NCBI GenBank assembly: GCA_018699955.1
Contig: JABISG010000046.1
Coordinates: forward strand, 1-64,000
Reading direction: 5' to 3'
Origin: Planctomycetaceae bacterium
Lineage (GTDB): Bacteria; Planctomycetota; Planctomycetia; Planctomycetales; Planctomycetaceae
Length of the DNA: 64,000 nt
Positions within the stretch are counted from its first letter, which is position 1; each line of letters starts with the position of its first letter. A program made the translations under genes and the position numbers. This document shows, one piece after another, positions 9,261 to 36,865 of the stretch. Below the pieces are notes generated by a model. The model saw only the letters and a program-made list of their open reading frames with translations, was not told the DNA's origin and did no database searches.

Positions 9261-10025
9261 CTAGATGTGGATGGCCGAGCCGCCATCGACGGTGATCGTT
9301 TCGCCTTGAACGAGATCGCTCATCGGGCTGGCGAGAAATAGCACGGTGTTGGCCACGTCTTCGGCTTCCAACACTCGTTCGCCCATCATGCTCTTATCCG
9401 TGCGGCCGGCGAACATGCGATCGGCGAAGGGGATTTTGCGCGTCGAATCGGTCTCGACCAATCCCGCTTTCACCACGTTGACGTTCACGCCACGGTCGCC
9501 GACTTCCAGCGTGAGATGCCTGGCGACGCTTTCCAATGCCGCCTTCGATCCGCCGATCAACCCATACATGGGCAACGCCATGTGCGAACCGTGGCTGGAA
9601 ATGGCAATCACCTTTCCGCGCCCAGACGAAGTTTCCAGCATGGGCAGGGCACCGCGGACGACATGCACCAGCGATAGCACATTCGTACTCATCGTGTGCT
9701 GAAAATGCCGGGCGTTGGATGCCAGCAACGGACGGAAACCGCCGGTTGCTGCATTGCTGACGATGATATCGAGTTGGCCGATGTTCTCCCTGACGAAGTC
9801 CATCAGGCAATCGACGTCGTCCTCTTCGCTGACGTCGGCTTTGACGACGTAAGCGATGCGTCCCATCTGCTCGATTCGCTCCGCAACTTCCGTCGCGGCT
9901 GCTTTCGATGTCACGTAATTCACAATCACATCGGCACCGGCTTCGGCAAGCTTCAAGGCACACGCGCGGCCGATGCCCCGCGAACTCCCTGTTACCAAGG
10001 CAACTTTTCCAGTCAGGTCGATCAT
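9261..10025 (-). CDS. FabL-type enoyl-ACP reductase (SDR), last gene of the lipid-synthase cluster
   Basis: A 254-residue short-chain dehydrogenase. The N-terminus VALVTGSSRGIGRA is a classical NADP Rossmann motif. The active site is Y154 and K161 (YGLIGGSKAALE), that is Y-x6-K, the spacing of enoyl reductases of the FabL class, not the Y-x3-K of ketoreductases. VSNAATGGFRPLL and VQGETITVDGG also resemble Bacillus FabL. It is therefore more likely an enoyl-ACP reductase than FabG. It is co-oriented with the Rieske and synthase genes (150 bases downstream of 10176). The synthase lacks an enoyl reductase domain, so this protein is a good candidate for a trans-acting one; that role is inferred. 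A second reductase, FabI, is encoded 7 kb away. Confidence 0.75.
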   Translation of the reverse strand: MIDLTGKVALVTGSSRGIGRACALKLAEAGADVIVNYVTSKAAATEVAERIEQMGRIAYVVKADVSEEDDVDCLMDFVRENIGQLDIIVSNAATGGFRPLLASNARHFQHTMSTNVLSLVHVVRGALPMLETSSGRGKVIAISSHGSHMALPMYGLIGGSKAALESVARHLTLEVGDRGVNVNVVKAGLVETDSTRKIPFADRMFAGRTDKSMMGERVLEAEDVANTVLFLASPMSDLVQGETITVDGGSAIHI

Positions 10026-10175
10026 TTTCTACTCATGTTCCAAAAGGGTCTTGTTACGTATTTCCAATTTAGGCGATCGGCCGACAGCTATCAGCTTTCA
10101 GCCGGACAAAATCTGGATTTCCAATCGAATTGAGCCAAACGCGGATCGTTTGGTCGATTGTTCATGCTGTGATCG

Positions 10176-11360
10176 TTAGTCGCCATCGGTTGCAACAGTC
10201 ATTGGCTGCTGGCGTTCCTCTTCAATGTCTCGTTCTTTCGTGAGAAATGCGTCTTCTCCGGTCATTTTCAGCACGTAGTCCTGGAAGGGGAAGATCCGTT
10301 CTTCGCGGGTCGAAATGAGACCGCCGCGCGGTCGCATCGGTGCAGCGATTCCATCGTGGACGGCGGGATAGACGGCTTCGTCCTCGCCGATCACCTTCGA
10401 CATGAATCGTCTGCCCCAGAATCGCAACGCCTTACTGAGGATGCGTGACTTCAGTCGGCCACGTTTTCCCGGATAGCAGAAAATACGCCACATTGCGTGA
10501 CATTCCGACGGAGAAACCGGCAGCACCATTTGAACCCACGTGAACATCGCCATTTGGCCGAAGACCACATTCGGATACCGCAGCAGATGCTTCCATTTGT
10601 AGTCGGGTTCGTAGCCAATAAGTTTTGACATGATCCGATCCGGACGCGCGTTCATCGGCACGGTGGAGTAGTCGTCGATGTAGAGATCCCAGAACTCATG
10701 AAATTCGTGGCTGCAACATTTCTCATCGGGGTAGACCCCCAATGAATTCGGATGCACCTCGCCGATGTGATACCCTTCCAAAACGTTTTCGATAACCACT
10801 TTCCAATTGCACTCGTGAACGATGTCGAGCGGGCAGACCAAATCGTGGTCTGGAGTAAACCATCGCTCGCACATGTCGTACAGGTAGTCTCCCAAAAACT
10901 CCCGCAGGCCGCCGACCGTGTCGTTCAACGTGACGAAGATCAGCTGTCCTGCCGTCTCGGTGCGGAATTTGCGCAGGCCCAGTTCACCTTTCGCCATCGG
11001 CTTGAAACTCTGCGCGTCGGGGATTTTTTGCGTGTCGCCGTGGCAGTCGTACTCCCAACCGTGGTACTGGCATTTCAGGTGTTCGCCCATGTGTCCGCAC
11101 GGCTTGTCACGAAGAAGCGAGAATCGGTGCGTGCAAACGTTAAGAAACGTATGCACCTCGCCGCCGGTCTTCCAACAAATGAGGGGCTTTTCGAACAGCG
11201 TCCGCGTGAAATAGTCGCCTTCGTTCGGCAGGTCCGACAGCGCACCAATACAATGCCAGCCGGGCTGGAACATCCGCTCCATCTCGCGCTCGAGATGCTC
11301 GGCCGATGTATACAAACTGGGTGCCAAACGTTGCGGCATGTGTGTATCGTTGACAAACAT
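10176..11360 (-). CDS. Rieske non-heme iron oxygenase, paralogue B
   Basis: A 394-residue Rieske-type oxygenase (alpha-subunit-like). The [2Fe-2S] site is C76-x-H78 (NVCTHRFS) with C97-x2-H100 (LKCQYHGWEYD). The mononuclear iron site includes H198 and H203 (EGYHIGEVHP), with an acidic ligand probably within the GEDEAVY segment. These enzymes hydroxylate, dihydroxylate, desaturate or demethylate substrates using electrons from a ferredoxin and a reductase, which are not encoded nearby. It is a clear tandem paralogue of the gene at 11375-12526, from which it is 14 bases away. Both begin with AAAGGG Shine-Dalgarno sequences. The context suggests tailoring of the lipid-synthase product; the substrate is unknown. 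Confidence 0.83.
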   Translation of the reverse strand: MFVNDTHMPQRLAPSLYTSAEHLEREMERMFQPGWHCIGALSDLPNEGDYFTRTLFEKPLICWKTGGEVHTFLNVCTHRFSLLRDKPCGHMGEHLKCQYHGWEYDCHGDTQKIPDAQSFKPMAKGELGLRKFRTETAGQLIFVTLNDTVGGLREFLGDYLYDMCERWFTPDHDLVCPLDIVHECNWKVVIENVLEGYHIGEVHPNSLGVYPDEKCCSHEFHEFWDLYIDDYSTVPMNARPDRIMSKLIGYEPDYKWKHLLRYPNVVFGQMAMFTWVQMVLPVSPSECHAMWRIFCYPGKRGRLKSRILSKALRFWGRRFMSKVIGEDEAVYPAVHDGIAAPMRPRGGLISTREERIFPFQDYVLKMTGEDAFLTKERDIEEERQQPMTVATDGD

Positions 11361-11374
11361 GGTTGCCCTTTCTT

Positions 11375-12526
11375 TTATGAACCGGCCGCCATAGCCACAC
11401 CATTGGAATTCGCCGCTTCCGGCGAAGTAACACGCTCAATGTACTTTTGAAAATGAAAGCACCGCTCTTCGCGAATCGAAACCAACCCCTCAGAGGGTTG
11501 GTTCGGCGCTTTCAAACCGCGGTAGACCTCTTCGAGCACGGCGCAATCCTCACCTCGCAAAATCTCAAAGAATCCTGCTTCCCATTTTGCAAGCCGGCTC
11601 GACAGGATTCGCGAGACCAATCGTCCGGAACGTCCGCCGTAACAGAAGAACTTGCCAATCACCCGCGTGCGATCAACTGAAAGCGGAATCGTCCACTCCA
11701 TCCAGCTGAACAATTTCATCTTGCCGAACATGGTGTGCGGATAGAAATGGTAATGCTTGTATTCATCATCACTCTCGCCGTGAGCCAGCCGGTTCATAAT
11801 CCGGTCCAGCAGACGATGCCACGCCGTCGGAGCTTCCTGCACGGTCGCATAGGTTGTCCAACCCGATTCGAGTTCGTGCTCGCATTCTGCCTCCTCAGGT
11901 GCCCGGATGAACGTCTTAGGATGCACCATGTCTACGTGATAGCTCTCCAGCGAATTCTCAACCTTGCACTTCCAGTTCGTGTCGATTTCGTAATCGAGTG
12001 TGGCAGCAAGTCGGCGTTCGGGGCCGCACAACGTTTCGCCAATCTCAAATCCTGTCCCAAGATATTCGCGGAGGCTGGGAGCTTCGTCGTTCAGTGTGAC
12101 AAAAATCAACTGGCCGCAGGTTTCGGTTCGGTATTTCGTCAGACCGAGAGCGCCCTTCTTCATCGGTTTGAAGCTCTGCGCGTCGGGAATTTTCTGGGTG
12201 TTTCCGCTGCAGTCGAATTCCCAACCGTGGTATTGGCATTTCAGTCGTTCGCCGGCGTGTCCACATGGCTCGCCATGCAGGCGTGCAAATCGGTGTGGGC
12301 AAACGTTGAGAAAGGTGTGGTACTCGTCGCCGCTTCGCCAGAGAATGAGCGGATGGTCGAGCAGTTCAATCGTTAAGAAGTCACCGTCCTGCGGGAAGTC
12401 GGAGAAAGTGGCGATACAATGCCAACCCGGCAGAAACAATTGCTCGAGTTCGCGGCGATACTGATCCTCCGACGTGTAGTCCTGAGGAGTGAGCACCTGC
12501 GGCAGATGAGTCTCGCTGATGAACAT
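11375..12526 (-). CDS. Rieske non-heme iron oxygenase, paralogue A
   Basis: A 383-residue Rieske oxygenase. Its Rieske ligands are C76, H78 (NVCPHRFARL) and C97, H100 (LKCQYHGWEFD), and its mononuclear iron ligands H197 and H202 (ESYHVDMVHP). Shared stretches with the downstream paralogue, for example IPDAQSFKPM and GQLIFVTLND, show a gene duplication followed by divergence in the C-terminal catalytic domain. The open frame extends 24 codons further upstream, but the ATG at 12526 matches the start of the paralogue (MFISETHLPQ versus MFVNDTHMPQ) and follows AAAGGGCG. A 142-base gap separates it from the PPTase gene. No small (beta) subunit is present. Confidence 0.83.
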   Translation of the reverse strand: MFISETHLPQVLTPQDYTSEDQYRRELEQLFLPGWHCIATFSDFPQDGDFLTIELLDHPLILWRSGDEYHTFLNVCPHRFARLHGEPCGHAGERLKCQYHGWEFDCSGNTQKIPDAQSFKPMKKGALGLTKYRTETCGQLIFVTLNDEAPSLREYLGTGFEIGETLCGPERRLAATLDYEIDTNWKCKVENSLESYHVDMVHPKTFIRAPEEAECEHELESGWTTYATVQEAPTAWHRLLDRIMNRLAHGESDDEYKHYHFYPHTMFGKMKLFSWMEWTIPLSVDRTRVIGKFFCYGGRSGRLVSRILSSRLAKWEAGFFEILRGEDCAVLEEVYRGLKAPNQPSEGLVSIREERCFHFQKYIERVTSPEAANSNGVAMAAGS

Positions 12527-12668
12527 CCCATCGCCCTTTCTTTCGTTTCGCAACCAAGGGAGTGGCGACCGCCATCGGCGTGTGATGGTGGAAAACACTT
12601 CCCAAATAAGCTCGCTTGCGCGTCGGCCGAAACGATCGGCCGCTCTCCCAACTATTCCTGCTTGTCAA

Positions 12669-13409
12669 TCAACACGTTTCACAGAACTCCGTTCGATGCA
12701 GATCGTTTGTTTGTCTGCGATCCACAGCGACTGCTTCCAACATCGTCGCTACGACAGCGATGTGGCCGTCGAATTCACGTTCTTGAATGTCACCGACGTC
12801 GCGAAGATCGGTACCTCGATAATAACACCCGAAGCGACCCTCTACAGAATCGAAAACTTCAATTTTCCGTGGCGCGAAACTCTCTCCGTTCTGACAGGCC
12901 TTATAAACGGCCTCCTTAATCGCCCAGTAAGTCATCGCAAGCCGGGAATCGGCTGATTTCAATCTCTCTTGTTCGGCTTCGGTGAACCACATCCGCAAGA
13001 ATCCTGGCTTGACCGTTTCCGGTATCGTCAAATCGACGCCGATCGAGATTCCCGGCTGAGTTGTTACGCCCACCAGGACGGCATGCGTTGAGTGTGAAAT
13101 CGATAGGCTGGCAGAAATCGGTTCACCACTGACGGTGACCGCCGGCCGCATGCCCCGACCTTCCGCATCCCGCGAGAGAATCTCGATCAATTCCAGCTTC
13201 GTTGCCGGCAGGACACATGCTTCGCGAATAAGGTGTTTGCTGAGCCAGCGTCCGCACAGCCATGCCTCGCGGCGGCTTCCGTCGCGCAGCAGATCGAGTT
13301 CACGTTTCTCTGCGACGGACAGCCACGCGCTCCCGCACAATTCGCATGCCGAGCGAAGCTCGTCGAATTGGGCGAATCGCTCAATGCGGCCGTTAGCTGG
13401 AACTGGCAT
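12669..13409 (-). CDS. 4'-phosphopantetheinyl transferase, Sfp type
   Basis: A 246-residue transferase that attaches the phosphopantetheine arm of CoA to carrier-protein serines. Seen motifs are SLSISHSTHAVLVGV (about 101-115), the magnesium-binding GVD at 124-126 (GVDLTIPE), FLRMWFTEAEQERL, and WAIKEAVYK (162-170; catalytic Glu and Lys). The length and the pseudo-dimeric layout fit the Sfp/Gsp class rather than the short AcpS. Its ATG lies inside the end of the synthase gene (17-base overlap), so the two are translationally coupled. The likely targets are the four ACP domains encoded at 21528-23267. Confidence 0.88.
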   Translation of the reverse strand: MPVPANGRIERFAQFDELRSACELCGSAWLSVAEKRELDLLRDGSRREAWLCGRWLSKHLIREACVLPATKLELIEILSRDAEGRGMRPAVTVSGEPISASLSISHSTHAVLVGVTTQPGISIGVDLTIPETVKPGFLRMWFTEAEQERLKSADSRLAMTYWAIKEAVYKACQNGESFAPRKIEVFDSVEGRFGCYYRGTDLRDVGDIQEREFDGHIAVVATMLEAVAVDRRQTNDLHRTEFCETC

Positions 13410-16400
13410 GAGCCGGAACCTCGTAGACGATAACGTTCTCGTATCCGTCCACCTTCAGAATGACCGCTCCATCGTCGCCAAACAGTGCGAAGTCAAAAAT
13501 GCCGCCGTTTCCTTCACGTCCCCGGAAATGGATATGCAGCTTGCATGTCTCGCCGGGCCTCGGACTGCGACCGAGTGACAGGCAATCGATGTGCGCAGGA
13601 ATCGACACGCAACCGGGTATCAAACACCACAGGAAGACACCGCTGGCGAAAAAGCAACCGTCGAGAAGTGCCGTCGGGATCACCCAGCCGTCGCCGTTCC
13701 GCTCTCCGGTCACCTCATCGGCCGGCGGGGCAATCAGCTGCGACCAGGCGTCGTGCTCTTGCATCTGAAACTGCCGAAACGTGCGGAAGATCGGTCCATG
13801 ATAAATCACTTTGTCGTCTTCGGGATACCAGGTGTTGATCCAGGTATCGGGTGGTTCCGGGAAAACGGCCTCCGGTGAAAACGGACCGCAATTCACTTCA
13901 GCACGGCATCGCAGATAAGGCTGATTCGGTTTCAGTACCTTCCCACCGCGATTTTTGAAGTCGGCAGTGAATTCACACTGCAGACCGTCGCTCCCGCCTG
14001 TCACATTCAGCCGCGCGGTCAGCGGATCATCGGAGAGAAATCGTAAACCGTTCAGAATCTCAATGTCCTTCAATTCACACACGCGGCCCTCTTCACCGAC
14101 GAGCAGCGATGCCGCTTCAGCGAGCGATTCGAGCGTCATTACCACCGGCATCATCGGCCGCCCCTTGTAGCGGTGCTGACGCAGAAACACATCGGACGCA
14201 GGATTGAGAATCACCTCAGCCCTCAGCGACTCTCCCGGAACGACATCCGGCAGGGCATCGACCATCGGCATCGATTCGAGCCCCGAGTTTCCAGATGTTA
14301 CCGCTACCGGCTTCTCATTGGCGTAGTTGCTTTGGCAATAGGAAAGTTCCGTTATTACGATTTCGCCTTCCGGCAAGCCGGCACGCATTTCGTTCGTGAG
14401 ATGATCGACGCCTTCCAGCGACGGCATGAAGACGATGTTGTGCAGCTTGGCGATGTGCTTGGACTCGGGCCGAACCGCCATGCCGACGTCGTCCCAGGCA
14501 TGCCAGTGGAATACGGCCGCCGGACAATCGCTGCGCTGACGACGGAACCAGTCGATCAGCTTCGCAACCATTTCGTTTGCCACGCAGTAATCGGTCTGGC
14601 CAACGCCGCCGAATCGTCCACTGACCGATCCGAACGCGGCAAAGTAGCGAAGCGGGTCCTGCATCGTCAGTTCCATTAGTGCCGCAGCACCATCAACCTT
14701 GGCGGCAATCGTGCGATCGACAAGATACTGCTGTTTCTTCTCAAAGCGACAGGCCCGCTCGAATCCGGCACCGTGAATCACTCCCTGAATCGGGCCGTCG
14801 GCAGCGCGAACAGTGTTGAGCAATCCCGAGAGCGCATCGCGGTTGCTGATGTCGCAGGAATGGTAGGTCGCTTGAATGCCATCGTCGGCAAACGATTTTA
14901 GCGTCCGGGCTATTTCGAGCGACTTTTCATAGCGAGCCCAGGTGTCCATCGGTTTTTCACCGTTGGCCAAGCCTTCCTTCATGACCGTGGTGCGCAGTTC
15001 CTTGGTTTCCTCTTCCGACAGGTCAAGGTAGGCATCCGGCACGTTGGGGACAGGACTTGAACCGATCAGATGCAGCTTCGCCCCGTACTTCTCACCCAAT
15101 TGACGAGCGACGACTGCAGTAACGCCTCGCGCTCCGCCTGTGATGACAAACGTGGCACCGTGCGGAATCTCATTGGCCGGTCGCGTCGCAACCGATTCGA
15201 CAACGGGACGCGGCAGGCAGCGTTTTCCATTGTAGTAGCCAACTTCGACTTCATTGTCGTCGGCTGCCAACTCGCGGCAGAGCAGTTCGGCCACATCGGT
15301 CGCTGACGCCTGAGCGGTTGAATCGACGATCTTCGTCCGAAATCGATCCTCGCGAACCTGCATTTTCAATTCCAACGCGACGCCCTTGAGCAGACCGGCG
15401 ATCGCTCCGCTTTCCACGTTCGGCAGACCGCTGGAGAATCCAAAGTCGCCACCCATTGTCGTCGCGGCGACGAGCGAGGCTTCGCCAAGTTGTTTGGCTT
15501 TCGCAACCGATTCATACCATCGCTGACAAACAAGGTACGGGACCATCACGCCGCGCGTTCGCCGACGATTCCAACTCTCCGCATCGAGTGCAGTGACGGC
15601 ATCCTCGTCGTATGGTGTCATCAGGAATAGATGCAGTGGCTGACTTGTGCTGCAGATCGTCTCCAACTGCGACAAGATGCCCTCAATATCGTCGCCGGTT
15701 GGCAGCAGCGACACCTGTGTGCCTTGCTGTTCCAATCGTTGTTTTAATGCGACCGCGGCCGCATTGTCACCGAGGATTAACGCCGGCCCGTTCCGCGTGG
15801 AATTGGGTTGCGAATTGGGCGGAAGCGAGGCTTCAACAACCCGCATGACGAACCGACTGCAAACTCCCGAATCGGTCGGCGAGACGGCATACGCGTCGGC
15901 GAATTCTTCCGCTGAGAGAATCTCATCAACGCGAGTCTTTGGGCTGCCGTTGTTGTGATCGGCCGCAGTTGCCGTCGATTTCAACTCCGGCAGCAAATCG
16001 TGCAGATCGAGTTTGGTGAACTGGTTCTGGTGGCCGTTGGACATTGGTCCGCCGGTCACCCACAGTTGACCTTTTCCGGGCTGCATGACGACGCTGATCT
16101 GATTGTCGATGCGGCGGATGGTGTTGATCGTTGGCGATGAGACTTCTTGTCCGCGCGACGGATCAAAACGATCGCGGAGAGCATCGTGCACATCCGAAAG
16201 ACTGACATGCGACGCTCGGTCGCCGTCGAGCAATTCTTTCAGCCGATTGAGTCGGTGTTCCGAATGCGATGGCAAATCGCGAGCCGTTTCGTAGAAGTTC
16301 ATTAACAGGCGATGATTGGCAGCAAAGATAGATGGCATTGCCGGTTGGACTTTGAGGTTGGTTCCATCCCATTCAACGTAACAGACGCGATCTTCCGCTT

Positions 16401-19400
16401 CGCGGCTGATGCAAAGCCCCCACGTGCCGCCCGCCGACGTTTGGAATTCATGGATAATTTCAACGGCCGAATCAATGTCCTTTGCCTGCTCCAGCAACTG
16501 CCTGACCAGCAGCGTGTGGAGTCGCCCCTGTTGGGATACGGACTCTTTGGGGATGTCGGCGAGTGTCGCCGTGCTGATCGCCAGGCCGCAGCCGTTGATA
16601 CCGCTGAGGCTCCCCACTTGCCCCGCGACACCGAAAGTCACGTAGGGCAAAGTGCCATCGGGTCGGCGAACCTGAATACTGCGTGCGAGGCAGTCGCCCA
16701 GTCGAACACTTTTGGAAAGGTCTTCGTTTGCTGCGTGCAAAAGTCCGGTTTCGGGACTGGCTTCTGCGGAGAGAGCAAAATGCACGCCACCAACTTCCGC
16801 GTCGTAGAACAGTCGCAAGTTGTGAGCGATCACACTCGCCTCGGTGACATCAGCCCCTTTGGCGATGCCACGTAATTCTTCCAATTCTTGTGGACCAAAG
16901 AAGACTTCCGGTTGTCGGACTGCGTCATCGAGATTGAAAAGTTTTTCCCATCGCGAACCGGCGAGATCGGCGTAGCGGCGGAGAATCGTCCGGATTTCGT
17001 CGCGGTGCGTCTTGCCGTGTTGGAGTCCCATTTCGTAGGGCGAACCGGAAAGTCGATCGACGTTCAGGACGCTTTTGTGCGAAACGTCCTGTGTGTCTTC
17101 TGCCGCGGGCGACTTGTCGGTTAATGCGGCGACTGCCGAGACCCTGACACTGCGGTCTTCCGATTGAGAATCAAGTGCACCGGTCGTCTCGACACATGCG
17201 CGTGCGTAGAGCAGTTGTGCCATGCCGCTGCGTTTCGGATGGTCGCAACCAACCAGTGCGAGATCGCGGTCGGCGAGCGCCTGCCTGTTCAATCCGGTCA
17301 ATACCTGCCGAGGTCCGACTTCCACAACGACCGTGACGCCTTCATTCGCCAATCGCACGGCCAAGCCGCGCCAATCGACGGGCTGCGTCATCTGAACAAC
17401 CAGATTTTCGCGGACGTCTGCCGGGTCGGCCACGTACTTGTTTGTCACACTACTGAGTAACGGGATCTGCGGCGGCTCCACCGGAATCTGCTGAAGAGAG
17501 GCACGGAACGGATCTTTGACCCCTTCCATCAGCGGCGTGTGAAACGCGGCCGGGACATCGAGGATCTTTGTCTTGAACCCCTGGTCCTCGGCGGTTTCGG
17601 CAAGCTTTCGAACGGCCTGTTCGTCACCACCGGCGACAGTTTGCTCCGGAGCATTGAGATGGGAAACCGAAACTCGTCCTTCGGTTTTCTTGCACAGCCG
17701 ATCAAGAGTTTCTGCCGGAGCGGATGTTGACACCATTATGCCATTGTCGCCATCGCAGGCATCAATCGCTGCGCAGCGTGCGCGTGTCGCGAGAATGGCT
17801 TCATCAAACGTCCACGAACCGGCTGCTGTCAGCGCGGCCAATTCGCCGAAACTATGCCCGGCGACGCGATCGGCTCGCAATCCGATCGCCGTAGCAGCCG
17901 CATAAACAATTGTGTCGGCGGCAAGCAGCGACAACTGCGTTCGGCAGACGTCACTTCCTAATCCGTTGTCCTTCTGCCATGCCAGTTCGGCAAACGATGG
18001 CAGGTTGAGTCGCGATAGCACGGCATCGACTTCACGCATTGCTTCAGCGGCTGGAGCGAACTCCGCGACGAGCGACTGCAGCATGCCGTCGTATTGCGAT
18101 CCCTGACCGGGAAACACGAAAGCAACTTTAGGACGCTGTGAACTGGTCTCACCGTAAAAGATGCCCTTTTCGCCTAACAATTGGCGTGCTGCGGGACGGC
18201 CGAGTTGAGCGCCGGCCATCTTGAGTTTCGCCGCCAAATCATCCGCACTTTCCGCAACGATTGCCAATCGGAATCGGTCGGCAGGTTGAAACGAAGTCGC
18301 ATCCGCTGCTTCGTACAGTTTTCCGGCTTGAGCGATTTGTTGTGTTGCCCGTTCGCCGAGTGCCGACATCGATGAATCGACCAGACGAACGATGCGCCAC
18401 GGCGACAGAATTCCCGCGTTGGCGGTTGCAGGTGCGGACTTCACAATCGCCGACTGCGGCTTCTCGGCTTGCGGGATTTCTGTTCCGCCTTCAACAACAA
18501 CGTGGTACGCCAAATCGAATTGCGAGTATGTGCTGACGCCGGCCAATCCATGCTGTCGCGAATTGACCACTCGAACCGGGGTATCGGCCTCGGCAAGCCG
18601 GAGCATTTTGGCGTTGGCCTGAACGTAATCGGCCGGGTGAGCCGGTCCAAAGTTGCCGGGGATCTCACCGTGATTCAACTCGGTGACCGCCTTCATGATT
18701 TCGAGAATACCGGCTGCGCCGCAGGTGTTGCCGATTTGTCCCGCCAGAGCGCCGACCCGCAATTCATCACTGCGGCTGTCTGAAGCATAGGCTTCGGACA
18801 GTCCGGCAAACTCTGATCGATCGGCCGCCGGCAGGCCGGACGATCCAGACTCGACGACCGCGATTTCTTCGGGACTGACGCGAGCCGCTTCCAACGACCG
18901 CTTCGCAGCACGATGAACGCCTTTTTCCAGCGTCTCACCTCGGGCGGCAGCAATGCCTCGGATCACCCCATGAATTTTGTCGCCGTCACGCTGGGCGTCG
19001 GAAAGTCGCTTCAGAATGACAACGCCAACACCTTCTCCCGGGACGTAGCCCGACGCATCGGCATCGAACGGACCTTTCGGATCGTCGGTTTGCGACAACA
19101 ATCCGAGTTTCGCCATGAACTCATAAATGGACAGCCCCATTTCGCGGTGACCGGTCGCGCAGAGCATCATGTCGCAGTCGCCGGCTCTCAGCAGGTCGAT
19201 CGACGAAGCCAAGGCCGACATCGCCGAGGTGTTCCCCGAATCGACGGCTGTCGCACCGCCCATTAGATCAAACGTCTTTGTGATCCGCGAAGCGAGCGTG
19301 CTGGACGTGAAGCTTCCGGTTTCGTCAACCAACGCCGGCATATGCTTCAACAGGATCTTTTCATACTTCGCGGCGACGTCGTCGATATCAGCGTCCGGAA

Positions 19401-21339
19401 TTCCACGGTCGCGAAGAATATCGGCAAGCATCATCTTGAATTCGGGCAGCCGCAATCCCATGTTGAGCTGGCTGGAAAACTCGCCACAGAAAATGGTGCC
19501 GACGATCACGCCGGTTCGGCTCTTGTCGAATTCTCGTTCGTCGAATCCGGCATTCTTCAGCGCCTGATCGGCTGCATCGAGCAGCATGAACTGCAGTGGA
19601 TCGGCACTGGAAATCTGCTTCGGCGGAACTTTGTGCCGCTTCCAATCGTATGCAAAATCGGAAATGAATCCGCCGGTTTTTGTGGGTACCCGCCACAACT
19701 CGTTGGAATTCGGTTCGTGTCCGTAACGGGGGTCCCAACGCTCCGGCGGAACTGCACTTTTCTGATCTTCACCGGAGTGAATGACGTCCCATAATGCATC
19801 GATGGTCCGCGCTCCTGGGAGAACAGCGCCCATACCGATGATGGCAATGCCCTCTTCTTCGACGTCCGTCGCTGCGTTCTGCTCGGTTGGTGTGGCAATC
19901 AGTTTGCGGCTGACTTCGGGCAGATGTTCGTCGAGGACGACATGCACATTCAACCCACCGATGCCGAAGGCATTGACGGCTGCGCGCCGCGGACTGTCCG
20001 GTGCCGGTGAGGGCCAGGCCGTCGTTTCTTGCGGGACGTAAAACGGGACGTTTTCCCAATCGATCTTTTCGTTCAGCTTCTTGATATTGATCTGTGGAGG
20101 AATCGTTGCGTGCTGCATTGCCAGCACGGTTTTCAACAGGCTGGTCAAGCCGGCCGACTCCAGCGTGTGTCCGACGTTGGCCTTTACGCTGCCGACGGCC
20201 ACCTTTTTCCCGGTCGGCAGAACGTCCTTGAGGACACGTGTCAGGGCGTCGATTTCCGTCGCATCACCGACCTGCGTTGAGGTGGCGTGCATTTCGATGT
20301 ATTGCAGATCGTTCAGTGACAGGTCCTGTCCATAAGCGCGGTGAATCGCTTCGACTTGGCCTTCTGCCCGCGGAGCCCAAAGGCTCTTACCTTTTCCGTC
20401 CGATGAAATGCCGATGCGGCGGATGACTGCCTGAATGGGATCGCCGTCAGCCATTGCACGATCGAGCGTTTTGAGCACCACCGAGATATAGCCCTCTGCG
20501 GCGACGAGTCCGTCGGCGTCGTTGTCGAACGGGCAGGTTCCATTGTTCGCGCTGACCGATTGGGCCTGCGAGAAGAGAACCAGCGTGTCGGCGTGGCAAT
20601 ACGAGGCACCACCCACAATCGCCATGTCGATTTCGCCCAACTGCAGCGCGCGGGCGGCATGTCCCAATGCACGCAGCGACGAGGCGCAGGCGGCATCAAA
20701 GCACATTGAAGGGCCGCTGAGATTGAAGCCTTCGGAGATGACTGATGCCGCGCGATACGCGCTGGCCTGCGTTTGCAATCTTCGGTCGTCGCGCTGAAAG
20801 TCGGCGCGGACCCGGCCGATAATTTCCTTAATGATGGCATCCTGCGCGCCGCCGGTGAGTTCATCGAAATTGGGAATCTCGCGCAGATATTGAGCCGTTT
20901 GCTCTATCAGACGAGCGTAAACGGCGTCGCCCGAAAGTGAACTGGGCGGGGTGTGTCCGATGTAGACGCCGACGTCCATCGACGGCGACAACGCAAATGG
21001 ATCGAGACCGGCATGACGGCAAGCGGAAGCGGCCACCTCGCAGAGCAGCAAATGCACGTCGTGCGATTGATCGATCAATCGCTGCGGGATTGGGCACGCT
21101 TGGTGATCGAACGGTTTGTTAGTCACCACGCCGCCGATCGATGCATACGACTTATTCAGCATCCCCTTTTCGGGATGGTAGCGCATCTCGTGATCGAATC
21201 GTTCGGGAGGAAGCTGGCCCAACTGGCTGCCTCCTTCTGCCAGCAGCGTCCAGAATTCATCGAGGTTATCGGCACCGGGCAACCGACAGGCCATACCCAC
21301 AATTGCCAGCGGAATGTCCGCAATGTTTTGCTTCGTCAT
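13393..21339 (-). CDS. Iterative lipid/polyketide synthase: KS-CLF-AT-C45-KR-DH
   Basis: 2648 residues. Domains in order are as follows. KS about 8-475, with an intact triad C218 (DAACASS), H351 (MHATST) and H391 (NVGHTLESAG). A second KS fold about 495-955 has all three positions changed (N703 in DSGNTSA, G832, N871 in IGNTCGAAG), like a chain-length factor. AT about 1070-1385, with S1163 (GHSFGE) and H1267. A C45/penicillin-acyltransferase-like domain about 1425-1785 (GSPYEMGLQHG, LLHAANEDL, GSLSGINGCGLAIST, AANHRLL) has no cysteine between 1511 and 1549, where the nucleophile belongs. KR with its structural half about 1850-2335 (ITGGARGVTA, Y2251). DH about 2375-2640 (H2389-x3-G-x4-P, D2560). 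There is no ACP, ER or thioesterase domain. KS-CLF adjacency and the KR motif resemble Pfa-type PUFA/secondary-lipid synthases. The product is unknown. Confidence 0.9.
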   Translation of the reverse strand: MTKQNIADIPLAIVGMACRLPGADNLDEFWTLLAEGGSQLGQLPPERFDHEMRYHPEKGMLNKSYASIGGVVTNKPFDHQACPIPQRLIDQSHDVHLLLCEVAASACRHAGLDPFALSPSMDVGVYIGHTPPSSLSGDAVYARLIEQTAQYLREIPNFDELTGGAQDAIIKEIIGRVRADFQRDDRRLQTQASAYRAASVISEGFNLSGPSMCFDAACASSLRALGHAARALQLGEIDMAIVGGASYCHADTLVLFSQAQSVSANNGTCPFDNDADGLVAAEGYISVVLKTLDRAMADGDPIQAVIRRIGISSDGKGKSLWAPRAEGQVEAIHRAYGQDLSLNDLQYIEMHATSTQVGDATEIDALTRVLKDVLPTGKKVAVGSVKANVGHTLESAGLTSLLKTVLAMQHATIPPQINIKKLNEKIDWENVPFYVPQETTAWPSPAPDSPRRAAVNAFGIGGLNVHVVLDEHLPEVSRKLIATPTEQNAATDVEEEGIAIIGMGAVLPGARTIDALWDVIHSGEDQKSAVPPERWDPRYGHEPNSNELWRVPTKTGGFISDFAYDWKRHKVPPKQISSADPLQFMLLDAADQALKNAGFDEREFDKSRTGVIVGTIFCGEFSSQLNMGLRLPEFKMMLADILRDRGIPDADIDDVAAKYEKILLKHMPALVDETGSFTSSTLASRITKTFDLMGGATAVDSGNTSAMSALASSIDLLRAGDCDMMLCATGHREMGLSIYEFMAKLGLLSQTDDPKGPFDADASGYVPGEGVGVVILKRLSDAQRDGDKIHGVIRGIAAARGETLEKGVHRAAKRSLEAARVSPEEIAVVESGSSGLPAADRSEFAGLSEAYASDSRSDELRVGALAGQIGNTCGAAGILEIMKAVTELNHGEIPGNFGPAHPADYVQANAKMLRLAEADTPVRVVNSRQHGLAGVSTYSQFDLAYHVVVEGGTEIPQAEKPQSAIVKSAPATANAGILSPWRIVRLVDSSMSALGERATQQIAQAGKLYEAADATSFQPADRFRLAIVAESADDLAAKLKMAGAQLGRPAARQLLGEKGIFYGETSSQRPKVAFVFPGQGSQYDGMLQSLVAEFAPAAEAMREVDAVLSRLNLPSFAELAWQKDNGLGSDVCRTQLSLLAADTIVYAAATAIGLRADRVAGHSFGELAALTAAGSWTFDEAILATRARCAAIDACDGDNGIMVSTSAPAETLDRLCKKTEGRVSVSHLNAPEQTVAGGDEQAVRKLAETAEDQGFKTKILDVPAAFHTPLMEGVKDPFRASLQQIPVEPPQIPLLSSVTNKYVADPADVRENLVVQMTQPVDWRGLAVRLANEGVTVVVEVGPRQVLTGLNRQALADRDLALVGCDHPKRSGMAQLLYARACVETTGALDSQSEDRSVRVSAVAALTDKSPAAEDTQDVSHKSVLNVDRLSGSPYEMGLQHGKTHRDEIRTILRRYADLAGSRWEKLFNLDDAVRQPEVFFGPQELEELRGIAKGADVTEASVIAHNLRLFYDAEVGGVHFALSAEASPETGLLHAANEDLSKSVRLGDCLARSIQVRRPDGTLPYVTFGVAGQVGSLSGINGCGLAISTATLADIPKESVSQQGRLHTLLVRQLLEQAKDIDSAVEIIHEFQTSAGGTWGLCISREAEDRVCYVEWDGTNLKVQPAMPSIFAANHRLLMNFYETARDLPSHSEHRLNRLKELLDGDRASHVSLSDVHDALRDRFDPSRGQEVSSPTINTIRRIDNQISVVMQPGKGQLWVTGGPMSNGHQNQFTKLDLHDLLPELKSTATAADHNNGSPKTRVDEILSAEEFADAYAVSPTDSGVCSRFVMRVVEASLPPNSQPNSTRNGPALILGDNAAAVALKQRLEQQGTQVSLLPTGDDIEGILSQLETICSTSQPLHLFLMTPYDEDAVTALDAESWNRRRTRGVMVPYLVCQRWYESVAKAKQLGEASLVAATTMGGDFGFSSGLPNVESGAIAGLLKGVALELKMQVREDRFRTKIVDSTAQASATDVAELLCRELAADDNEVEVGYYNGKRCLPRPVVESVATRPANEIPHGATFVITGGARGVTAVVARQLGEKYGAKLHLIGSSPVPNVPDAYLDLSEEETKELRTTVMKEGLANGEKPMDTWARYEKSLEIARTLKSFADDGIQATYHSCDISNRDALSGLLNTVRAADGPIQGVIHGAGFERACRFEKKQQYLVDRTIAAKVDGAAALMELTMQDPLRYFAAFGSVSGRFGGVGQTDYCVANEMVAKLIDWFRRQRSDCPAAVFHWHAWDDVGMAVRPESKHIAKLHNIVFMPSLEGVDHLTNEMRAGLPEGEIVITELSYCQSNYANEKPVAVTSGNSGLESMPMVDALPDVVPGESLRAEVILNPASDVFLRQHRYKGRPMMPVVMTLESLAEAASLLVGEEGRVCELKDIEILNGLRFLSDDPLTARLNVTGGSDGLQCEFTADFKNRGGKVLKPNQPYLRCRAEVNCGPFSPEAVFPEPPDTWINTWYPEDDKVIYHGPIFRTFRQFQMQEHDAWSQLIAPPADEVTGERNGDGWVIPTALLDGCFFASGVFLWCLIPGCVSIPAHIDCLSLGRSPRPGETCKLHIHFRGREGNGGIFDFALFGDDGAVILKVDGYENVIVYEVPAHASSS

Positions 21340-21417
21340 GTTGCTCTAGCTGCTTTCGTAATGCCGTTATTTCTTCCCGCGCGTTGGTCGGGCTTGCCTG
21401 CACCCACAAAAGAATGG

Positions 21418-21440
21418 GGCACGGATTTCACACCCGTGCC
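21418..21440. repeat. Hairpin GGCACGG...CCGTGCC between ACP and synthase genes
   Basis: A 7-bp perfect stem (21418-21424 with 21434-21440) lies in the 188-base gap between the ACP-array gene and the synthase gene. It could be a short interspersed repeat or could tune expression between two cotranscribed genes. There is no T-run. Confidence 0.45.
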
Positions 21441-21527
21441 ACGAGATTCCCGGAATTAACGACCGTTCACGAGTCGCAATTCCTGTCCACGATTATCTGT
21501 CACTGAATGAAAGTTAAACGCCTGAGT

Positions 21528-23267
21528 TCAGGCGGTGACTCTCTGTGGAGCTCCCTCAAGAAACTTCATCACGTCCCTGAGCGTTGGAAAGTCGTCGAGC
21601 GACAACTCCTCGTCCGACTGAACGTTCACCTCAAACTGCTCGGCCAATTCGCCAAACAGCTGCGCCTTCTTGATGCTATCGATGCCCAAGTCGGATTCGA
21701 GGTCAGCGTCCATTTCGACCATCTCCGGTGGGTAACCGGTCTGCTCGACGACAAAGTTGACTAGAAATTCTTCCAGCTCCACACCACTCATCGCAGCACC
21801 GGCTGGCGGTGTCGATGACTCGGAAACCGAGGGACTTTCAGAGGAAGGACTCGGGGGTGGAGTCGGTTGACTGGAAACAACATCGCTCTCGGCCGGTGGC
21901 TGCGTTGCGGACTGAGAATTCCCTTGCAGGAATTCCTTCACGTGCCGCAGTGTGGCAAAATCGTCCAGCGAAAGATCGTCTGCCGATTGCATATCGATCG
22001 TAAACTGTTCGGCCAATTCACCGAAGAGTTGTGCCTTTTTGATACTATCGATTCCGAGATCGCCTTCGAGATCGGCGTCGAGTTCGACCATCTCTTCGGG
22101 ATAACCCGTCTGCTCGACAACGAAATCGATGAGGAACTTTTCCAGGTCAACGTCGTTGAGACTGGTTCCGGCCGATGTTTCGGCTGCTGCAACCGGTGAC
22201 GTTGTTTCGGCAACGGGAGCTTGCACGCGTGCCTGTGCAACCGGCTCTGGTGTCGATGCCGCGACAGTCGTCGATGATGCGCCTTCGAGAAACGCCATCA
22301 CGTCTCGCAATGTTGCGAAATCGTCGAGCGAGAGATCGTCTGCCGACTGCATATCAATCGTAAACTGTTCGGCCAATTCACCGAAGAGTTGCGCCTTCTT
22401 GATACTGTCGATACCGAGATCGGCTTCGAGGTCCGCATCGAGTTCGACCATTTCCTCGGGGTAGCCGGTCTGCTCGACAACAAAGCCGATCAAAAACTTT
22501 TCCAAGTCTGCGCCGTGAGGAACCGAAGTTCCCGTGGATGCGACTTCGGCCGATGCCGGCTCAATTGCCGTCGGAGCAATTTCAGTCTGAACGGGAGCAG
22601 CAGCAACGGGTGCGGGAGTGACAACAGACGGAATCGGTTCCGGGGCAGGAGATGTTTCCGTCGCCGCTCCGGAGCCAGCCGACTCGAGGAAGCTTTTCAC
22701 ATGTCGCAACGTGGAGAAGTCGTCCAACGAAAGTTCGTCGGCCCCCGCGACATTCACTTCAAATCGCTCGGCAAGTTCGCCAAACAGTTGAGCTTTCTTA
22801 ATGCTGTCGATGCCGAGATCGCCTTCGAGGTCGGCATCGAGTTCGACCATCTCTTCTGGGTACCCGGTTTGTTCGACGACAAATTCGACCAGAAACTTTT
22901 CGAGTTCCGGGCCAGCGGGCATAGCCGCCGAACCGTTACTTTGTGGCGAACCATTTCCCTGCGCTGAGCCGTTGCTGTTTGGGGCAGCCACCGGGGCGAC
23001 AGGTTTCGCAGCCGCCGGGTGGGCAAAGGCACCATTGTTTTTGGGTGTTGCGGCGGGAGCAGGAGCTTGGGCCACTGGTTGTGTTGGCGCAGTCGGCGGT
23101 GCGACGGCTGTTGTCTCAGGCTGCTGCGTCTTAGGCTCCGCTGTCGCCTGGAGTCGCATTTTCTCCTTGCGACGCACTGTGGCATCAAAATGCACAATCC
23201 GCGAACCAGTTTGGCCGTTTGATGACTCTTCGGCCGACAAAGCAGAACGATCGATTATGGTACTCAC
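21528..23267 (-). CDS. Tandem acyl carrier protein (four ACP domains)
   Basis: From the chosen start the protein has 579 residues. A disordered N-terminus rich in Ala, Pro, Gln and Asn is followed by four ACP domains joined by Ala/Pro/Thr-rich linkers. Each carries LGIDSIKKAQLFGELAE, with phosphopantetheine serines at 155, 288, 408 and 531. ACP2 and ACP3 are almost identical (EQFTIDMQSADDLSLDDF in both), whereas ACP1 and ACP4 share FEVNV. Tandem ACPs with LGIDSIK are the hallmark of PUFA-type synthases, where copy number raises output. Here they form a separate protein that would serve the ACP-less synthase in trans. The frame is open from a GTG at 23363; I prefer the GTG at 23267 because GGAG lies 7 bases upstream. 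The start is uncertain. Confidence 0.88.
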   Translation of the reverse strand: MSTIIDRSALSAEESSNGQTGSRIVHFDATVRRKEKMRLQATAEPKTQQPETTAVAPPTAPTQPVAQAPAPAATPKNNGAFAHPAAAKPVAPVAAPNSNGSAQGNGSPQSNGSAAMPAGPELEKFLVEFVVEQTGYPEEMVELDADLEGDLGIDSIKKAQLFGELAERFEVNVAGADELSLDDFSTLRHVKSFLESAGSGAATETSPAPEPIPSVVTPAPVAAAPVQTEIAPTAIEPASAEVASTGTSVPHGADLEKFLIGFVVEQTGYPEEMVELDADLEADLGIDSIKKAQLFGELAEQFTIDMQSADDLSLDDFATLRDVMAFLEGASSTTVAASTPEPVAQARVQAPVAETTSPVAAAETSAGTSLNDVDLEKFLIDFVVEQTGYPEEMVELDADLEGDLGIDSIKKAQLFGELAEQFTIDMQSADDLSLDDFATLRHVKEFLQGNSQSATQPPAESDVVSSQPTPPPSPSSESPSVSESSTPPAGAAMSGVELEEFLVNFVVEQTGYPPEMVEMDADLESDLGIDSIKKAQLFGELAEQFEVNVQSDEELSLDDFPTLRDVMKFLEGAPQRVTA

Positions 23268-23387
23268 CACGACGCTCCGTGATTTGGATGGAAAAACAAT
23301 TGTTGCCCCGGCTGACGACGGTCCAGTCGTAGCCCCCCAGCTTTTTTCGGGAACAGCGAGCACAGCCGCTGCCCGACGTAAATCAAA

Positions 23388-24914
23388 TTAACTCTGCTTC
23401 GGCTGTTCGTGCGGCTTGGCAGCCACACCCTGCAAAATGTCAGCAAGTTTGCCGAGAGGAACACCGTTCCCCTCAATCAGCACGCCCCCAGTGTTAATCA
23501 GGTGGTTGACGTTCGACTGTCGAGTCGCCAACTTCTTGAATGTGTTTGAATTCAAATAGTACGTGGCAGTGCAGCGTTCACTGAGCCCTTGCGACGCGGA
23601 GACGATCTGTCCGTCCCGCAGCGACAACTCCCACTGCCCGCCTCCCTCGCCATTCACTTGAAGCCCCAGGAAGGTGTCGCCTTCCGTCTTGGATTCGGCA
23701 GTCAGATCTGTCAATTCCTGCAGATGTTCATGGACGTCGAATTGCAATTTCACTGCAGGTTCGCGCGGCCATCCAAAATTCGATTCAATCGCGAACCGAC
23801 ACATCATTGTGAACATCTCTTCGTCGAGGTCGGGACAGGGAAGATCCGGCGCGGCTCGACGCGTGTTGGCGTCGTCAAACAGCGGATCGTCGCCCCAGTA
23901 CGATCGGTAAACGCCCATTCCTTCGAGAAAGAATTGCTCAAACTCCGCCCAATCGACTTTGGCGTCGGAATTCTGGCCCTTTAATTCTTCGCGATGTTGG
24001 AGTGTGTATTTCAGAATCACCTCTTCCATGACCGTCTGGAACAACTGCACCGGGACGCGCGAACGCGGTGTTAAGTGGTAGGTCTCGTTGTGCAATTCCG
24101 GCTCGACATAGACGCGGGCCATCATTTCCGAGACCCAATCGACCGGAACGAAGTTCTTCGCCTCTTTGCCGTCGAGCTGAAGAATCGTTCGCAACCGAGC
24201 ACCAGCCATACGAATTCCCTGCTCAGCCGCTTCCGGCGAAGCGCTGGCAGCAGCCGACTTCATCGTCAACGATGCCACCAGTTTCAGCGGCACGTAGAAA
24301 CCGTGATAGGTGGACGTATAACCCGTCTTGGAGTCGCCCAGAATGATGCCGGGGCGGTAGACCGTGACCGAATCGAGGAAGTCGGCTTCGCGGACCATCG
24401 TCTCCGATTGAAACTTACTGATCTCGTAGTCGTTGCCGTGCTTTTGGCCGACATCGAGTTCGCCTTCCAGAACACGGTCGCGGCGCTGACCGCAAACGTA
24501 GGCCGTCGAAACGTGATGGAATTCGCGAATTCCAACCGACTTGACGAACTGGAGCACATGACTGGTGCCGTGCAAGTTTGATCGCCACGGTTCCGATTCC
24601 GGACTTTCGGCCTGAAACGTGAGGCTGGCGGCGTTATGCATTAACGCGCTACAGTTTTGAGCAACCCAGGAACGCGAGGCATCGTCGAGACCCAAATTGG
24701 GTTTCGAGAGATCCCCCTCGAAGACCACCGGGCGCTCAATCGCGTGCCCCGCTTGCTTCTCCCAGCGCGCAACAGAACTTTCAATGCGATGCTGCGCCGA
24801 TGCAAATCGCGTCGGCCGCACCAACACTGCCAGCTTTACGCCCCTACGCGACAGATCGCGTATGAGATATGATCCCAGCAGCCCGGTGGCGCCGGTGAGG
24901 AAAAGGTAGGACAT
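23388..24914 (-). CDS. Acyl-thioester reductase-like SDR with C-terminal SCP2-like domain
   Basis: A 508-residue protein, first gene of the cluster. Residues 1-370 form an extended SDR of the male-sterility/thioester-reductase (NAD_binding_4) type: FLTGATGLLGSYLIRDL, a catalytic Y163-x3-K167 (YEISKFQSE), STAYVCGQRRD and VYRPGIILGDS. Residues about 395-500 look like an SCP2/sterol-carrier lipid-binding domain (FLGLQVNGEGGGQWELSLRDG ... NTGGVLIEGNGVPLGKLADIL, quoted in parts). Such SDRs reductively release carrier-bound acyl chains as aldehydes or alcohols. The synthase has no thioesterase, so this is the best candidate for chain release, with the SCP2-like part holding the lipid. Both roles are inferred. 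The start at 24914 begins exactly at the Rossmann strand. Confidence 0.8.
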   Translation of the reverse strand: MSYLFLTGATGLLGSYLIRDLSRRGVKLAVLVRPTRFASAQHRIESSVARWEKQAGHAIERPVVFEGDLSKPNLGLDDASRSWVAQNCSALMHNAASLTFQAESPESEPWRSNLHGTSHVLQFVKSVGIREFHHVSTAYVCGQRRDRVLEGELDVGQKHGNDYEISKFQSETMVREADFLDSVTVYRPGIILGDSKTGYTSTYHGFYVPLKLVASLTMKSAAASASPEAAEQGIRMAGARLRTILQLDGKEAKNFVPVDWVSEMMARVYVEPELHNETYHLTPRSRVPVQLFQTVMEEVILKYTLQHREELKGQNSDAKVDWAEFEQFFLEGMGVYRSYWGDDPLFDDANTRRAAPDLPCPDLDEEMFTMMCRFAIESNFGWPREPAVKLQFDVHEHLQELTDLTAESKTEGDTFLGLQVNGEGGGQWELSLRDGQIVSASQGLSERCTATYYLNSNTFKKLATRQSNVNHLINTGGVLIEGNGVPLGKLADILQGVAAKPHEQPKQS

Positions 24915-25911: not shown

Positions 25912-26625
25912 ATGCCCGACAAGACAAGCACATCGGCCCCCATCACACTTGAGGACGACAGTCTGCCTCAGGATCAACTTGAGACGACAGACGCAACTCA
26001 TGCGAATTCGCCGAAGCACAGCGAGTTCGTTCGCAAGTTGTTGCACATGTCGCCGGGACTGCTGCCGTTCGTTTTCGCCCTTGTGCCCCATTTTGACCCG
26101 CTGGACTGGATCGCACAGGCGGCCATCGTCACTTGCTGCGTTGTGATGACGGCTGTGTTTCTCTCGCTGTACCGCACCGTTCGCCGCCCCGGTGAAGACA
26201 ATCTGCTGAGTACCGCCATCAGCTATCCGGCCATCATCATTGTCACCGTCCTGCTGTTTCCGGCGCACGTGGAATTGATGGGCGTGGTGGTGGTAGTGCT
26301 GGCCTTGGGTGACGGCGCGGCATACATCGGCGGCAAGACATTTGGCAAACGTAAGTTGCCGTGGAATCCCGATAAGACCTGGGTGGGAAGCCTGTCGTTC
26401 ATCGCGGTTTCAGGACCGATCGCAACCTTGGCATACATGGCTCTCGCCGACGCCGACGGACGACATTGGGAAATCGCCACCGCTTGCGGTTTCGCCGCCG
26501 CAATTTGCGGTTCGATGGCGGAATCACTGCCGGTAAGACTCACCGACAATCTGCGCGTCGGCGTGTCAGCGCTATTGGCAGTGACCGCGATGCAGTACGC
26601 ACTCGTCGGGTTGACTCTGTTCTAA
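25912..26625 (+). CDS. Diacylglycerol/polyprenol kinase family membrane protein
   Basis: A 237-residue integral membrane protein with about six hydrophobic segments. RKLLHMSPGLLPF and LALGDGAAYIGGKTFGKRKLPWNPDKTWVGSLSF are the conserved signatures of the dolichol kinase / phytol kinase / CTP-dependent diacylglycerol kinase family, in which GDG and K-T-x-G contact the nucleotide. It probably phosphorylates a prenol or lipid alcohol using CTP. The first 35 residues are hydrophilic and probably cytosolic. It is divergent from the lipid-synthase cluster; a link to that pathway is possible but not shown by the sequence. Confidence 0.77.
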   Translation: MPDKTSTSAPITLEDDSLPQDQLETTDATHANSPKHSEFVRKLLHMSPGLLPFVFALVPHFDPLDWIAQAAIVTCCVVMTAVFLSLYRTVRRPGEDNLLSTAISYPAIIIVTVLLFPAHVELMGVVVVVLALGDGAAYIGGKTFGKRKLPWNPDKTWVGSLSFIAVSGPIATLAYMALADADGRHWEIATACGFAAAICGSMAESLPVRLTDNLRVGVSALLAVTAMQYALVGLTLF

Positions 26626-29705: not shown

Positions 29706-29728
29706 CGGTGTGGGACGTCGAGGATGAC

Positions 29729-31192: not shown

Positions 31193-31230
31193 GGGATTGT
31201 CCGATGATTGATGTCAAAGTGTAATCGATA

Positions 31231-31302
31231 ACCAGCCCGCAGCGCGAGCGAGGGTTTTGGGTTGCGATCGGCGTTCAAACCCTTGCTTGCGCGACGGGCT
31301 GG
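31231..31302. repeat. Inverted pair of the interspersed GC-rich repeat
   Basis: The left copy (31231-31258, ACCAGCCCGCAGCGCGAGCG then AGGGTTTT) and the right copy (31277-31302, AAACCCTTGCTTGCGCGACG then GGCTGG) are imperfect reverse complements separated by about 18 bases. Together they can fold into one long hairpin. It lies between the two cotranscribed genes of the PSCyt-DUF1501 pair. Confidence 0.75.
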
Positions 31303-31313
31303 AATCCTCGTGT

Positions 31314-34457: not shown

Positions 34458-34784
34458 CGAAAGCTCCCAATCGGATTTTTCAAGCGGGTTGCAAGTCAGG
34501 TAAGGCAAGTCGGTATCGAGGCAGGGCAGGGGATGTTCTGGGGGATTACTGTCCCGTCGATTATCGTTTATCGAATGGCCGTCTTGCAAGGGCTGACCGG
34601 ACGAATGCAAACCACTGCCATCACCCCATATCTGCCGAAATCACTTGGACTTCCGGCTACGATACTGTAACATACCATGCATCACTTCGTCCCGTCTGAT
34701 AGACTACCCGCGACATGTGGGCCAAGCGTCGAATGTGAGCGGGCCTTGTGTTGTCGAATTTGAATCAATCTTGGGAGTTTCACA
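34458..34784. other. Intergenic region between divergent PSD1-type genes
   Basis: 327 bases between two divergent gene sets (minus at 34457, plus at 34785). No gene is seen. It should contain promoters in both directions; I could not pick a convincing -35/-10 pair. Confidence 0.5.
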
Positions 34785-36779: not shown

Positions 36780-36865
36780 GCGCTGAGGCCAGGAAGCGAG
36801 AAAGATTGCGAGTCGGCATCACATAAAACAAATCATCATTTAGAGATGACAGGATATAAACCACA

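Follow-up and report, generated by a model that had tools for sequence, protein, structure and literature searches.

Described Pfa-like synthases and the window cluster

Pfa-like synthases make omega-3 fatty acids, heterocyst glycolipids and zeamines, which gives them both ecological and commercial weight, and most of the architectures recognised so far have no known product. Those of the heterocyst glycolipid (hgl) kind yield long-chain alcohols. Here we analyzed a cluster of seven genes of this general type located in a 64,000-nucleotide stretch of planctomycete DNA (the window; positions 1 to 64,000 of contig JABISG010000046.1, from a 7.1 Mb assembly, GCA_018699955.1). Among the Pfa-like secondary lipid synthases it is a real and conserved variant, apparently one not described before. 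Its gene combination is unusual, yet the cluster belongs to a family showing internal variation, and its main interest lies in an N-terminal nucleophile (Ntn) hydrolase domain embedded in the synthase, which carries the nucleophile in some relatives and has lost it in the window. The seven co-directional open reading frames (ORFs) named in the first-pass annotation were borne out with their strand, coordinates and domains. In the order of transcription, from 24914 to 9261, they are:

23388..24914, minus strand: thioester reductase (TR, 508 aa) with a C-terminal SCP2-like lipid-binding domain, the likely release enzyme (Pfam NAD_binding_4, 4.8e-47; SCP2, 2.8e-5)
21528..23363, minus strand: protein with four tandem acyl carrier protein (ACP) domains (four PP-binding stretches; likely true start Met69 at ~23159)
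13393..21339, minus strand: iterative synthase of 2648 aa with ketosynthase (KS), chain-length factor (CLF), acyltransferase (AT), C45, ketoreductase (KR) and dehydratase (DH) domains, in that order (profile matches; sole full match in its own genome)
12669..13409, minus strand: Sfp-type phosphopantetheinyl transferase (PPTase; ACPS, 1.7e-12), overlapping the end of the synthase ORF by 17 bp
11375..12598, minus strand: Rieske oxygenase 1 (probably starting at Met25, ~12526; closest PDB match CntA, 5.5e-25)
10176..11360, minus strand: Rieske oxygenase 2 (47% identical to Rieske oxygenase 1)
9261..10025, minus strand: FabL-like enoyl reductase of the short-chain dehydrogenase/reductase (SDR) type, Tyr154-X6-Lys161 (FabL model, 1.4e-75)

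Pfam and NCBIfam domains were found across all seven ORFs (NAD_binding_4 and SCP2; four PP-binding; two KS, AT, C45, KR and PS-DH; ACPS; Rieske and ring-hydroxylase alpha, twice; SDR/FabL-like). The intergenic gaps are at most 188 bp as called, and two of them grow to ~225 and ~140 bp with the later likely starts of the ACP protein and Rieske oxygenase 1. The synthase is composed as follows:

19900..21339, minus strand: KS domain, active-site triad present (motifs CFDAACASS, EMHATSTQ and KANVGHTL)
18460..19854, minus strand: CLF domain, a KS fold without Cys and His (VDSGNTSA replaces DAACASS)
17170..18132, minus strand: AT domain, malonyl type by motif (GHSFG and AFH)
16060..17067, minus strand: C45/Ntn-hydrolase-fold domain without the autoproteolytic Cys, a probable pseudoenzyme (NF040521, 5.5e-39)
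16786..16788, minus strand: codon of Gly1518, the site of the lost nucleophile, aligned to the Cys of relatives
14305..15702, minus strand: KR domain with structural subdomain (Pfam KR, 1e-30; Ser and Tyr present)
13396..14292, minus strand: double-hotdog DH domain (PS-DH, 4.7e-7; His and Asp motifs)

The catalytic residues are intact in the KS (Cys-His-His), AT (GHSFG), KR (Ser/Tyr) and DH (His/Asp), and the active-site Cys is absent from the second KS (VDSGN), which is expected of a CLF. The four ACPs carry GIDSIKKA sites (Ser186, 319, 439 and 562), and the PPTase motifs are intact (GVDL and WAIKEAVYKA, corresponding to GVD and WxxKEA). The KS-CLF region matches PDB chain 6riw (labelled ORF10), presumably PfaC of Moritella marina, across both domains in a single stretch. 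The sequence features by which Pfa-like secondary lipid synthases are broadly recognised were found: KS, ACP and KR are present, the KS is related to PfaA/PfaC and it is paired with a Cys-less CLF. The domain assignments, the catalytic residues and the match with 6riw uphold the iterative Pfa-like pathway proposed earlier.

The Pfa synthases making polyunsaturated fatty acids (PUFA) share with the window the KS, CLF, AT, tandem ACPs, KR, DH and PPTase. According to the accessible part of the survey by Shulse and Allen (2011; PMC3098273), the types A-T of these synthases include split and fused gene forms, PfaA being split in types D and H, planctomycetes are already noted among types I and J, and the gene set found here does not correspond to any of the 20 types in the descriptions given there. 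Unlike these types, the window has KS-CLF-AT-C45-KR-DH in one protein, a separate ACP protein, a C45 domain, a TR and Rieske oxygenases, and in place of the FMN-dependent enoyl reductase PfaD the cluster holds only the SDR-type FabL-like protein. In the accessible text on hgl type F (PMC11804610), a Pfa-like synthase with a CLF is likewise accompanied by a PPTase and a TR, and antiSMASH labels some planctomycete clusters hglE-KS-like (PMC13190842). The hgl genes are split differently, however, neither C45 nor Rieske proteins occur in the hgl systems as far as that accessible text goes, and the KS of a cyanobacterial plasmid hgl-like cluster falls on a separate long branch. The zeamine and fabclavine clusters (PMC3547906, PMC9113149) resemble the window in having a Pfa-like synthase, a stand-alone TR and an extra SDR (annotated as a ketoreductase); they also have a free-standing condensation-like protein, and they differ by a PfaD-aminotransferase fusion and nonribosomal peptide synthetase partners, both absent from the window. 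The type P synthases of phenolic lipids (Azotobacter, Beijerinckia) are also large and iterative, with an ACP array, a KR and a PPTase nearby (L106), whereas their partner genes resemble KAS III or type III polyketide synthase (PKS) genes, their domain order is KS-AT-ACP-KR and their KS belongs to another branch. The carnitine monooxygenase CntA, which uses a bridging glutamate (PMC7948474), is the closest PDB match of Rieske oxygenase 1, which has a Glu at the position of E205 in CntA, but the similarity is distant, the context is different and the CntB gene is absent from the cluster. The first-pass annotation knew of no characterised system with this combination, and in the open-access papers and limited collections searched none matched; nor did the open-access literature yield a matching description of a planctomycete cluster with TR and Rieske genes, which is weak evidence of absence.

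Distribution and gene order in the planctomycetes

Relatives of the synthase were identified in 40 of the 170 genomes of the host family, about a quarter of them, belonging to 24 of its 58 genera and including complete single-contig genomes (G152, G283 and G291), as well as in two further families of the same class. The cluster is thus no one-off, but one variant of a conserved pathway. The search of a genome collection, based on six exact peptide patterns only and hence underestimating the spread outside the planctomycetes, gave 13 loci, 12 of which are planctomycete and one belongs to an acidobacterial metagenome-assembled genome (ACD2). In the latter (L020:8081-16720), a KS-CLF-AT-ACP-KR-DH synthase carries the TR as an N-terminal fusion and a FabL-like gene is also present; this locus is the same pathway in a fused form, outside the planctomycetes.

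Many of the relatives show a recognisable TR-ACP-synthase-PPTase-(0 to 3 Rieske)-FabL order, the TR being sometimes located after FabL or elsewhere. As the same order recurs where the synthases are only ~36-55% identical, which is what the first-pass annotation had suggested looking for in related genomes, and as the genomes with the FabL-like gene tend to be those with the synthase, the association between these genes exceeds chance. At E<=1e-65, FabL relatives are present in 36 genomes, and the synthase was found in 33 of these (33 of the 40 genomes with a synthase vs 3 of the 130 others; Fisher p=7e-25, a value that overstates independence because of the kinship among genomes). In the remaining three, FabL adjoins a Rieske gene and the contigs are probably broken. 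FabL is the best NCBIfam family for this protein, which scores 253.8 bits, below the equivalog cut-off of 328, and we therefore call it FabL-like; its catalytic motif is present (Y154GLIGGSK) and its best PDB match is the FabL-type enoyl-ACP reductase 3oic (1.7e-51). Since the window also contains a FabI-like gene (1267-2238), the FabL-like gene is an extra one, and because it tracks the synthase it is likely to encode a dedicated enoyl reductase acting in trans, as had been claimed for this cluster.

In the profile scans, in which several loci are partial contigs, the family most often has the order KS-CLF-AT-ACP(1-4)-C45-KR-DH, and the ACPs lie on a separate protein in the group to which the window belongs. 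In the KS tree, the eight trans-ACP rows come together in a single clade (SH-aLRT 100), as do the trans-ACP loci in the FabL tree (93), and in the C45 tree they fall within a set of 11 that also holds L086. By these trees, the trans-ACP form is derived, its clade being nested in a larger planctomycete family whose ACPs are usually part of the synthase. The four ACPs of the window are indeed separate from the synthase, as stated at the outset, but this split is a derived state and the other relatives carry one to four ACPs in cis. In the KS tree, which contains no gammaproteobacterial PfaA, the whole family stands on a long branch apart from the planctomycete Pfa-like, the phenolic-lipid (Beijerinckia, Methylosinus) and the cyanobacterial hgl-like synthases. 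The family provides a natural comparison between cis and trans ACPs, between Cys-bearing and Cys-less C45 domains, and between alternative chain ends (ester, amine or alcohol). At one locus (L017:10151-18408), the cluster is adjoined by genes of the ABC-2 transporter type and by another synthase-like protein, which is degenerate and has lost its KR motifs.

The C45 domain embedded in the synthase

The C45 domain scores 134 bits with its family model (cut-off 85), and its AlphaFold model (pLDDT 76.9, pTM 0.81) has isopenicillin N acyltransferase as its best fold match (Foldseek E 1.3e-18). It has the same fold as the Ntn-hydrolases acyl-CoA:isopenicillin N acyltransferase, acid ceramidase and NAAA, from which it differs in being embedded in a synthase and in lacking the Cys nucleophile. 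No description of a C45 domain within a PKS was found in the open-access literature, which is weak evidence of absence. At the autoproteolytic Gly-Cys site, Gly1518 of the window aligns with the Cys of the relatives, a change that the first-pass annotation does not mention, as it does not mention the SCP2 domain of the TR. Because the nucleophile is gone, the domain is probably a pseudoenzyme and a non-working step of the pathway, and its use as the release step in the window was rejected. The Gly-Cys pair is kept in nine relatives with cis ACPs (L016, L021, L063, L067, L071, L072, L080, L081 and L087) and missing from every trans-ACP member examined, and also from L086 and from the f2 family (L061, L064, L068 and L069). 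The loci also suggested that a TR and a live C45 domain might be mutually exclusive, an idea that was dropped since the genomes without a TR at the synthase locus have one elsewhere.

The identity of the Cys-less C45 domain among the trans-ACP relatives is 44-54% where it is intact, near the values for CLF and DH, which suggests that the domain is under selection and probably persists in some role other than proteolysis. The same conservation, together with the retained HAxNED motif, might be taken to mean that the domain is still catalytic and releases or transfers the chain by means of another residue, but this seems very unlikely: the Cys is lost throughout the trans-ACP members examined, the alignment shows no conserved substitute nucleophile at the site, and most of the domain is missing in L015, where it is reduced to ~100 residues. 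We tentatively suggest, as a possible scenario, that the family is a separate branch of iterative synthases, organised about the Ntn-hydrolase domain that they contain. The synthases of the relatives having the Gly-Cys pair would cut themselves between the ACPs and the KR-DH half, and the new N-terminal Cys could serve in acyl transfer or in release of the chain; in the clade of the window, where the Cys is lost and the ACPs have moved to a gene of their own, self-cleavage would have been replaced by gene fission, and the dead domain would be retained as a place where the trans ACPs dock or substrate is bound.

Proposed pathway, product and neighbouring genes

We favour, with moderate confidence, a secondary lipid pathway in which an iterative synthase of the Pfa/hgl kind would make a long chain that is released as an aldehyde or alcohol and oxygenated by Rieske enzymes. 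In the step order that we propose, the PPTase would charge the four tandem ACPs on their separate protein, the AT would load malonyl units, the KS and CLF would condense them iteratively and set the chain length, the KR and DH would process the beta-keto group, and the FabL-like reductase would finish the reduction in trans in some or all of the cycles. The C45 domain would act as a structural or binding module that has lost self-cleavage. Release by the TR would then give a long aldehyde or alcohol, the SCP2 domain shielding the lipid, and one or both Rieske oxygenases would hydroxylate the chain before or after its release, with a reductase encoded elsewhere. The product would probably be an envelope lipid, and the reduced, oxygenated long-chain lipid suggested in the first-pass annotation is retained as a proposal.

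Both Rieske proteins have the CxH/CxxH cluster ligands, the bridging Glu and the His-His-Asp iron site, and alignment A2 shows these ligands to be conserved, the one exception being L016:18273 with respect to the cluster ligands. No reductase partner was found within the cluster, and four FAD_binding_6 loci located elsewhere in the genome are candidates. Relatives of Rieske oxygenase 1 are associated with the synthase (p=1e-10), at a threshold that also lets in other Rieske genes. The TR matches the thioester-reductase model TIGR01746 at 1.2e-40, below the cut-off of that model, its nearest PDB chain is the MxaA reductase (8e-20), and it is the only copy in the genome.

Some observations weigh against a dedicated, singly transcribed pathway of this kind. 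The TR occurs in 154 of the 170 genomes of the host family, with or without the synthase (p=0.77), which rules it out as a dedicated pathway gene; as it shows no association with the synthase, its role is argued from its position and its sole copy, and we read it as a general planctomycete lipid gene recruited into the cluster. The release reductase claimed earlier is present, but its near-universality in the family gives no evidence of a dedicated pathway. The claimed tailoring is supported, two intact oxygenases being present in the window, but the Rieske genes are optional and are missing even from the trans-ACP loci L009, L011, L015 and L059. Lastly, two terminator-like hairpins (21417-21534) separate the ACP gene from the synthase, although the promoter and terminator scan of the region gave counts at the level of chance; these hairpins may have no significance or may control read-through. 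Of six regions inspected in which the TR stands apart from a synthase, three have an MMPL-family exporter nearby; such proximity to an MMPL-type exporter is seen at L110, L111 and L115, in genomes without the synthase, and some TR copies carry SCP2.

Additional genes accompany the pathway in the relatives. An acyltransferase of the WS/DGAT-condensation-like kind lies beside it in 12 loci (L016, L019, L020, L021, L084, L085 and L088-L093), where a protein of 470-500 aa with an HHxxxDG motif and weak condensation/WS-DGAT resemblance is adjacent to FabL or Rieske genes; this may be a PapA-type acyltransferase, and several of these loci also have genes resembling those of polysaccharide export. 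In the four f2 loci, the synthase has two KR, three cis ACPs and a degenerate C45 domain and is accompanied by a single Rieske, a FabL and a TR directly followed by a GSA-aminotransferase-like class III enzyme, an assembly that resembles a version of the pathway for long-chain amines; MMPL exporters are found near the TR or the synthase in f2 relatives. A GH3-family gene (adenylating acyl-amide synthetase type) lies beside FabL in L063, L071, L072, L080 and L087, five loci with a Cys-bearing C45 and two DH domains. Taken together, the acyltransferase, aminotransferase, GH3 and MMPL genes fit chains ending in an alcohol or aldehyde and then esterified or aminated, which has parallels in the accessible text on heterocyst glycolipids (PMC11804610) and in zeamines and fabclavines (PMC3547906, PMC9113149). 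None of these genes is present in the cluster of the window, so the simplest proposal for its product would be a fatty alcohol or aldehyde that is hydroxylated.

A partly reduced polyketide or polyene of the antibiotic or pigment type, with FabL acting only in selected cycles and the Rieske enzymes forming rings or hydroxyls, would be a specialised metabolite instead of a membrane lipid, and seems rather unlikely to us. Trans-acting enoyl reductases are often selective in other iterative PKSs, and the optional Rieske enzymes and the patchy distribution of the family (24 of the 58 genera) would fit such a product, but the KS-CLF and the ACP arrays are of the Pfa type, FabL is almost always retained, the release enzyme has an SCP2 domain, and no obvious resistance or regulator gene adjoining the cluster emerged from domain scans of the cluster and its flanks. 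The f2 loci, with their aminotransferase after the TR, bring to mind the zeamine and fabclavine clusters, where a Pfa-like synthase is coupled to a TR and a class III aminotransferase (PMC3547906, PMC9113149); conversion of the released aldehyde into an amine or polyamine is nevertheless improbable in the window, where the domain scans detected no aminotransferase either in the cluster or in its flanks. That the synthase makes true PUFA (EPA/DHA type) is the least credible of all these possibilities. The PfaA model does match both the synthase and the ACP protein, but at 701.7 bits the score is below the cut-off of 1010.1, the cluster has a release reductase and lacks the pair formed by a PfaD-type reductase and a FabA-type isomerase, and the KS belongs to a branch distinct from the other PKSs compared in the tree described above. 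The Rieske-oxygenated long-chain aldehyde or alcohol remains the product type that we prefer.

The cluster is bordered by the following genes:

6119-9184: SecDF, flanking gene
25912..26625, plus strand: CTP_transf_1 (phytol/dolichol-kinase-like) gene, divergent, doubtful member of the cluster (Pfam PF01148, 5.5e-8)

The CTP_transf_1 gene was considered as a core member that might encode an alcohol kinase, but a homolog lies beside FabL in one relative only (L011), and it was left as doubtful. The idea that the region might be a horizontally acquired island was unsupported, its base composition resembling that of the rest of the window. Positions 28269-38170 carry repeated DUF1501 and PSCyt/PSD1 gene pairs, a set typical of planctomycetes.

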